Of a stretch of 64,000 nucleotides of DNA, positions 89 to 4,661 are shown piece after piece. Position 1 is the first letter of the stretch, and each line of letters opens with the position of its first letter. The notes under the pieces are model-generated. The model made no database searches, was not told the origin of the DNA, and saw nothing but the letters and a program-made list of their open reading frames with translations. Source of the stretch: Limimaricola cinnabarinus (lineage in GTDB: Bacteria > Pseudomonadota > Alphaproteobacteria > Rhodobacterales > Rhodobacteraceae); the NCBI RefSeq assembly GCF_002723615.1, contig NZ_KZ304951.1:207344-271343 (forward strand), in the 5' to 3' direction. The translations under genes were made by a program, and so were the position numbers.

Positions 89-211
89 TCAGATCAGGCC
101 GGGCAGCCACAATCCGACGAACAACAGAACCATGAGAGACGCCGCGCCCAGCGCGTCGGCAACAAGCGTGTCGCGAGAGCGGTTCACGACCAGTTTGAGT
201 TCCTGTGCCAT
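89..211 (-). CDS. 40-aa single-pass membrane microprotein, probably SOS-controlled
   Basis: Short gene of 40 codons plus TGA. The N-terminal half is polar and basic (Lys6, Arg11 and Arg13, with Asp14 and Asp19). Residues 22-40 are strongly hydrophobic and end in Pro-Gly-Leu-Ile, so one transmembrane helix with a cytoplasmic N-terminus is expected. A good Shine-Dalgarno (GAGGAG) lies 7 nt before the ATG. A perfect GTTC-N7-GTTC SOS box lies 65-79 nt upstream, after the end of recG. I do not recognise a named family. In Caulobacter, SOS-induced single-pass microproteins (SidA, 29 aa) block division, so a damage checkpoint role is a reasonable inference but is not shown. That the gene is real rests on the RBS, the clean hydrophobic segment and the box. 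Confidence 0.7.
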   Translation of the reverse strand: MAQELKLVVNRSRDTLVADALGAASLMVLLFVGLWLPGLI

Positions 212-245
212 GCCGCGTCTCCTCTCACCATGCTTCCGTTGCCTG

Positions 246-304
246 TTTGTTCCCATATGAGGCGCGCCCTGTAAAGAACTTTATGAGAACACTTTGTTCC
301 CATA
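246..304. repeat. 12-bp direct repeat flanking the SOS box
   Basis: The 12-mer TTTGTTCCCATA occurs at 246-257 and again at 293-304, 47 bp apart, one copy on each side of the SOS box. Spacing of about 4.5 helical turns could suit a looped or cooperative regulator, but no protein can be assigned. Confidence 0.55.
276..290 (-). promoter_or_regulatory. LexA (SOS) box, GTTC-N7-GTTC
   Basis: On the minus strand the sequence reads GTTCTCATAAAGTTC, an exact match to the direct-repeat LexA operator of Alphaproteobacteria (GTTC, seven bases, GTTC). It lies in the recG-microprotein gap, 65 nt before the microprotein ATG. A one-mismatch copy (GTTG-N7-GTTC) is on the plus strand at 238-252. LexA binding is inferred from the motif only. 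Confidence 0.75.

Positions 305-336: not shown

Positions 337-4661
<4,325 letters not shown>

Follow-up and report, generated by a model that had tools for sequence, protein, structure and literature searches.

Our analysis of a 64,000-nucleotide stretch of the Limimaricola cinnabarinus genome (the window) recovered a recG-linked gene for a 40-aa microprotein, which is almost certainly a real and strongly conserved gene positioned behind a LexA-type operator. The gene, its coding constraint, a two-box operator, the recG locus and a single conserved helix face all emerge from the comparison of homologous sequences. The most likely function of the product is that of an SOS division inhibitor, a reading of the whole chain from repression to division arrest that we favor, albeit with reserve.

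Coding potential of the microprotein gene

The 40-codon gene occupies positions 89-211 of the reverse strand, stop codon included, and translates as MAQELKLVVNRSRDTLVADALGAASLMVLLFVGLWLPGLI; it is delineated by the reading of the ORF, by profile searches, by coding constraint and by two predicted helices at residues 2-11 and 13-39. The Shine-Dalgarno sequence AGGAG, read from the sequence at 219-223 (-), has a similar counterpart in 88 of 90 homologous loci, and the start codon is ATG in all 90. Diversity at the three codon positions, calculated over 74 homologous sequences of 40 aa, is 0.451, 0.303 and 0.623 respectively, and the mean BLOSUM score of the homologues is 83 as against 22 in a base-matched null, being higher in 99.5% of 600 pairs. 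dN/dS ranges from 0 to 0.27 in all 21 pairs among seven Limimaricola sequences, and L. litoreus (L227) has the very same microprotein as the window (dN 0). The initial annotation had described a 40-codon gene with a good Shine-Dalgarno sequence behind an exact LexA-type box, and each of these elements is indeed found in place.

Operator architecture

The exact GTTC-N7-GTTC box reported upstream of the ORF is present as GTTCTCATAAAGTTC at 276-290 (-). Taken in isolation such a box proves nothing, since its frequency is that expected by chance: sites with at most one mismatch number 34 in the window as against 36.6 expected, and exact sites number 47 in the genome as against 52 for the reversed control pattern. 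It is the conservation of the box across relatives that places it above chance, with motif scans locating an exact box within 160 nt upstream in 89 of the 90 homologous loci against an expectation of about 0.0009 per locus. In these 89 boxed loci the exact box starts 66-106 nt before the ATG, with a median of 79 nt.

A second LexA-type box, GTTGCCTGTTTGTTC, is found by motif scan at 238-252 (+), with one mismatch and in the opposite orientation (GAAC-N7-CAAC in the orientation of the gene). All 89 boxed loci carry this element after the first box in the form GAAC-N7-NAAC, the variable base being C in 82, T in 4 and G in 3 of them, a count made without selection for GAACAA or for a particular spacer. 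As the three GAAC cases constitute exact reverse-oriented boxes, we take this element for more than a part of the promoter, namely a LexA site. The spacer from the first box to the second is 22-24 nt long, being 23 nt in 81 of the 89 loci. When the two-box pattern was searched independently of the protein, it was recovered from 173 of 295 Rhodobacteraceae genomes, once per genome, and the reversed control pattern gave 0.

The first box is abutted by a putative promoter element, the -35-like TTTACA at 270-275 (-), which is conserved at 68-99% per base in 80 aligned operators and takes the form TTGAC or TTGCC in some loci. In the homologous operators GAACAA follows 17 nt after this element, with TG at the extended -10 position; the 80 aligned operators were picked for GAACAA and a 23-nt spacer, and the conservation of those bases among them is by construction. 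Judging from these positions, the two boxes would cover both the -35 and -10 regions. A generic consensus scan returned no sigma-70-type promoter at the operator. The 12-bp direct repeat and the one-mismatch box of the initial annotation are both present, with TTTGTTCCCATA occurring at 246-257, where it overlaps the second box, and again at 293-304, but the outer copy is not kept in relatives and is no feature of the family. Most relatives have an extra GTTC half-site in its place ahead of the first box, conserved at 91-95% per base in the 80 aligned operators and absent from the window, which is possibly a third LexA contact.

A terminator-like hairpin lies over the exact box at about 282-304 of the window (6648-6626 (-) of locus L061), perhaps as the terminator of recG. 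The upstream arm of the hairpin varies among the aligned operators, and the reading of this site as a recG terminator is rejected on that ground. This hairpin, along with the chance frequency of exact boxes in the genome, is what speaks for the ORF being incidental, whether the conserved feature is a regulatory site or the terminator of recG, or box and frame are paired by chance. We consider such an explanation highly improbable in view of the coding constraint, the conservation of the ATG, the Shine-Dalgarno sequence and the box (90, 88 and 89 of the 90 loci, respectively), the unconserved hairpin arm, and the lack of a box after recG in all 28 loci from other families described below. Chance pairing of box and ORF in particular is rejected by the box count, the coding constraint and the result in the other families. 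A further exact GTTC-N7-GTTC lies inside the ligA frame (3324-3338 (-) of the window) and is probably a chance occurrence, given the frequency of boxes genome-wide.

Locus and phyletic distribution

The conserved upstream neighbor of the microprotein gene is recG (337-2433 (-)), which is found on the same strand in 88 of the 90 loci, the exceptions being L039 and L159. On its downstream side the gene converges with a gene at 5793-6263 of L061, which from its sequence we take to be NifU-like, and a terminator-like site is present past the end of the ORF at L061 6296-6278, just beyond the window. The convergent neighbor and the terminator-like site together indicate that the microprotein transcript is probably monocistronic. 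No box occurs within 420 nt after recG in any of 28 recG loci from other families of the Alphaproteobacteria, one of which has a short hydrophobic ORF. As far as these comparisons go, the recG-box-microprotein arrangement looks like an innovation of the Rhodobacteraceae.

A search with the single sequence matched 198 of 295 Rhodobacteraceae genomes, drawn from 294 genera, and a 30-row profile matched 254 of the 295 at E <= 0.05; the gene is near-universal in the genomes of the family that were sampled. The 30 rows of the profile and 30 of the 90 loci are the best-scoring single-sequence matches, and the other 60 loci were hand-picked from the listed profile matches ranking below 30, with lower-ranked matches left out. 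The initial annotation had made its proposal depend in part on the conservation of the 40-aa frame and the box in relatives, and both are retained, in 254 of the 295 genomes and 89 of the 90 loci respectively. A separate named collection, which overlaps in part with the genomes of the other samples, returned 50 loci, all of them with an exact box upstream and 49 with the second motif.

In a sample of the order, the 30-row profile matched 112 of 121 genomes at E <= 0.01, all Rhodobacteraceae. A sample of the class yielded matches in 29 of 385 genomes, which were strong in 5 Rhodobacteraceae, and weak and unconvincing in 24 of the 380 others (E 0.001-0.05); 19 of these 24 fall within longer frames, 131-969 aa in length, and the other five within short ones of 23-35 aa, one of which contains a stop. 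A profile widened to take in diverged members matched 6 of 327 genomes, comprising strong matches in 4 Rhodobacteraceae and weak ones in 2 of the 323 others; the latter two, with E-values of 0.0005 and 0.008, fall within frames 438 and 453 aa long. The matches outside the Rhodobacteraceae, weak and mostly inside long frames, were set aside.

Within the family, recG was detected at a convincing score in 32 of the 41 genomes devoid of a profile match, the remaining 9 having nothing or a weaker match resembling another protein, presumably Mfd. Thirty of these 32 recG loci, all except those of G033 and G172, were read and sorted by hand. Sixteen of them combine an exact box, in either orientation, with a short hydrophobic ORF; two have the ORF with just a one-mismatch reverse box (L255, L262), two have the ORF devoid of a box (L278, L280), one has a box at the contig end (L253), and nine lack both the box and the membrane ORF. 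Most diverged versions of the protein retain aspartate at residue 19 (at least 90% of 29 rows). LexA is found in 6 of the 9 genomes whose recG locus has neither box nor ORF, implying that some SOS-proficient relatives can do without the gene.

SOS context

The genome encodes one LexA. A GAAC-N7-GAAC box is situated 36 nt before lexA, and boxes of this type also precede recA, at 41 nt from the earliest start codon of its frame, and a gene resembling pcrA/uvrD, at 40 nt. With GTTC-N7-GTTC in its promoter region and a box of the same type at lexA itself, the microprotein gene has the marks of membership in the alphaproteobacterial LexA/SOS regulon. Across the family the presence of LexA tracks the box at the locus in a suggestive manner, in a comparison with groups made after the fact and some incomplete assemblies: a strong LexA match occurs in 54 of the 55 genomes whose locus was shown to have the box, as against 16 of the 25 others (Fisher P 7e-5). 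Presence was defined as E <= 1e-10, with G008 and G069, which have weaker matches only, counted as absent. The sample comprised all 41 profile-negative genomes and 39 of the 60 match-bearing ones, the 21 left out being mainly less complete assemblies or those at the end of the list.

The ORF of the sole box-less locus among the 90 (L172) runs to 75 aa, in a genome (G157, an assembly 80% complete) that shows no LexA match, a possible case of decay after the loss of LexA. Two genomes, G195 and G167, have no LexA match and lack both the box and the microprotein after recG (L252 and L257). On contig C10 of the L. cinnabarinus genome, exact boxes are found 34-39 nt before two genes (L023, L024), which from their sequences are presumably resolvase-like and integrase-like; these are possibly SOS-linked mobile genes, though boxes occur at chance frequency.

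Predicted structure and conserved helix face

An AlphaFold2 model computed with 30 rows predicts a short helix at residues 2-11 followed by a helix at 13-39 (mean pLDDT 86.8, pTM 0.46), which is in keeping with the earlier notion of one clear transmembrane helix; the second helix is the one that would insert in the membrane. Across 89 sequences, column entropy varies with a period of 100 degrees (P 0.0034 for residues 13-38 and 0.011 for residues 19-38), with the conserved face of the helix formed by T15, D19, G22, L26, L30, G/A33 and P37. D19, G22 and L34 are invariant in all 89 sequences. The first 17 residues have a mean net charge of +1.1, which is positive in 74% of the 89 sequences, and 82 of them have no charged residue after position 20. 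The positively charged N terminus, the lack of charge past position 20 in most sequences and the single conserved face suggest that the N terminus lies inside and that the helix meets one specific partner in the membrane. The predicted helix, in conjunction with the operator and the coding constraint, lends good support to the SOS-type control of a conserved single-pass microprotein that had been proposed at the outset.

Searches against Pfam, NCBIfam, PHROGs and PDB sequences returned no family for the microprotein. A weak match to T2SSM (E 0.05) in one of 30 members was the sole hit, and membership of a described Pfam, NCBIfam or PDB family is rejected. Viral contigs contained 90 stretches with the pattern, none of which was confirmed, and phage genomes gave no match to the microprotein. 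The plasmid search returned one matching record, a 1.58-Mb replicon of Pseudorhodobacter turbinis filed as a plasmid, which bears a 45% identical copy (E 0.04; NZ_CP039965.1 332590-332709). With nothing confirmed in viral contigs, phages and PHROGs, and plasmids contributing this one record, a phage or mobile origin is rejected. Rfam showed no match in the 651 bases around the gene.

Proposed function and comparison with known systems

We infer a chain that runs from LexA binding and damage induction, through the topology of the product, to an FtsW-type target and division arrest. LexA would repress the gene via the two boxes bracketing its promoter, and LexA cleavage upon DNA damage would release a short, probably monocistronic transcript. 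The 40-aa product would sit in the inner membrane, N terminus inside, where its conserved helix face would dock on a single, specific partner. The septal peptidoglycan synthase complex (FtsW/FtsI/FtsN) is the most likely candidate, and docking there would pause division until repair is complete, in the way that SidA acts in Caulobacter. This SidA-like checkpoint is suggested by a resemblance of class, namely the SOS box, the tiny size and a membrane helix with a conserved face.

SidA of Caulobacter crescentus, described as an SOS-induced protein of 29 aa in the inner membrane that acts on FtsW (PMC4211646) and as the cause of the filamentation that follows lexA deletion (PMC12700426), is like the present protein a tiny, SOS-controlled, single-pass inner-membrane protein behind GTTC-N7-GTTC in the same bacterial class. 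The microprotein differs from it in having 40 aa, a distribution restricted to one family and a recG-linked two-box operator. DidA of the same organism, another small membrane protein, responds to DNA damage and targets the late divisome, but it is SOS-independent (DriD) and binds FtsN (PMC4211646), whereas the gene described here has a LexA-type operator. YneA, ChiZ and SosA are SOS-induced single-pass membrane division inhibitors, of which YneA acts through TM7 of FtsW, and published models put YneA, ChiZ, SosA and SidA alike on FtsW TM7, with what their authors state is not high confidence (PMC13396833). As described, YneA and ChiZ each bear a LysM domain outside the cytoplasm and SosA has an extended region, whereas the microprotein has few residues beyond its membrane helix; with 40 aa in all and no Pfam or NCBIfam match, it is devoid of a LysM domain.

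SOS-induced membrane peptides with functions other than division inhibition do exist, as exemplified by DinQ, a 27-aa SOS-regulated inner-membrane peptide that depolarizes the membrane when overexpressed (PMC3567139). The main rival to a division inhibitor is accordingly a membrane-active peptide of the TisB/DinQ kind, which would lower membrane potential and ATP and slow growth; the type I toxins TisB and DinQ of E. coli share with the microprotein SOS control by a box, a length below 50 aa and a single hydrophobic helix (PMC3567139). Those toxins, however, depolarize the membrane and are controlled by antisense RNAs through structured leaders, whereas here the ATG is close behind the operator with a plain Shine-Dalgarno sequence in 88 of 90 loci, and no antisense or other annotated RNA family of Rfam is matched around the gene, where an unannotated antisense RNA may yet exist. 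The conserved face with its invariant D19, G22 and L34 also fits a specific partner better than a disturbance of the membrane, and we regard this rival as unlikely. Next in rank, and unlikely too in our estimate, comes a small SOS-induced protein that regulates a different membrane complex, such as a transporter, a protease, or a respiratory or envelope enzyme. The conserved face implies a partner without naming it, and SOS control in Caulobacter is reported to extend to envelope regulation (PMC13384398); against this, the SOS-controlled single-pass microproteins for which the literature consulted gives a specific protein target, SidA, YneA, SosA and ChiZ, all act on late division, which is an argument from class.

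The division-inhibitor reading can be extended to a joint interpretation of all the features, to which we would give not quite an even chance. The Rhodobacteraceae would then possess, family-wide, an SOS division checkpoint of their own in the form of the recG-linked 40-aa microprotein, a new family by sequence, acting on the septal synthase via one helix face. The two opposed LexA boxes, at near-fixed spacing over the -35 and -10 regions, would jointly shut the gene because its product is too harmful to leak. In the profile-negative lineages the protein would have diverged almost beyond recognition with the locus, box and membrane helix kept (16 of 30 loci), as expected of co-evolution with a divisome target.

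Novelty and biological implications

No paper on an SOS division inhibitor, or on a gene of this kind, from the Rhodobacteraceae is among those listed by full-text literature searches, with the subscription literature, the SidA paper included, lying outside them and an earlier mention being possible. The main text of the D. shibae LexA paper mentions neither recG, SidA nor SulA, nor the term 'division inhibitor' (PMC6473078). A study covering R. sphaeroides and Paracoccus denitrificans states that recG of some alphaproteobacteria appears to be LexA regulated, be it through the same site or another (PMC3323433). ORFs of less than 50 codons are described as generally omitted in annotation (PMC7667032), and the microprotein is hence short enough to escape the usual procedures.

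The natural sequence diversity of the family around one conserved face amounts to ready-made mutagenesis data, and the system would offer a compact test of whether unrelated SOS microproteins have repeatedly evolved to target the septal synthase. The Rhodobacteraceae include several laboratory models, and the microprotein represents a probable brake on their division during DNA repair, adjoining the repair gene recG in most of the family.
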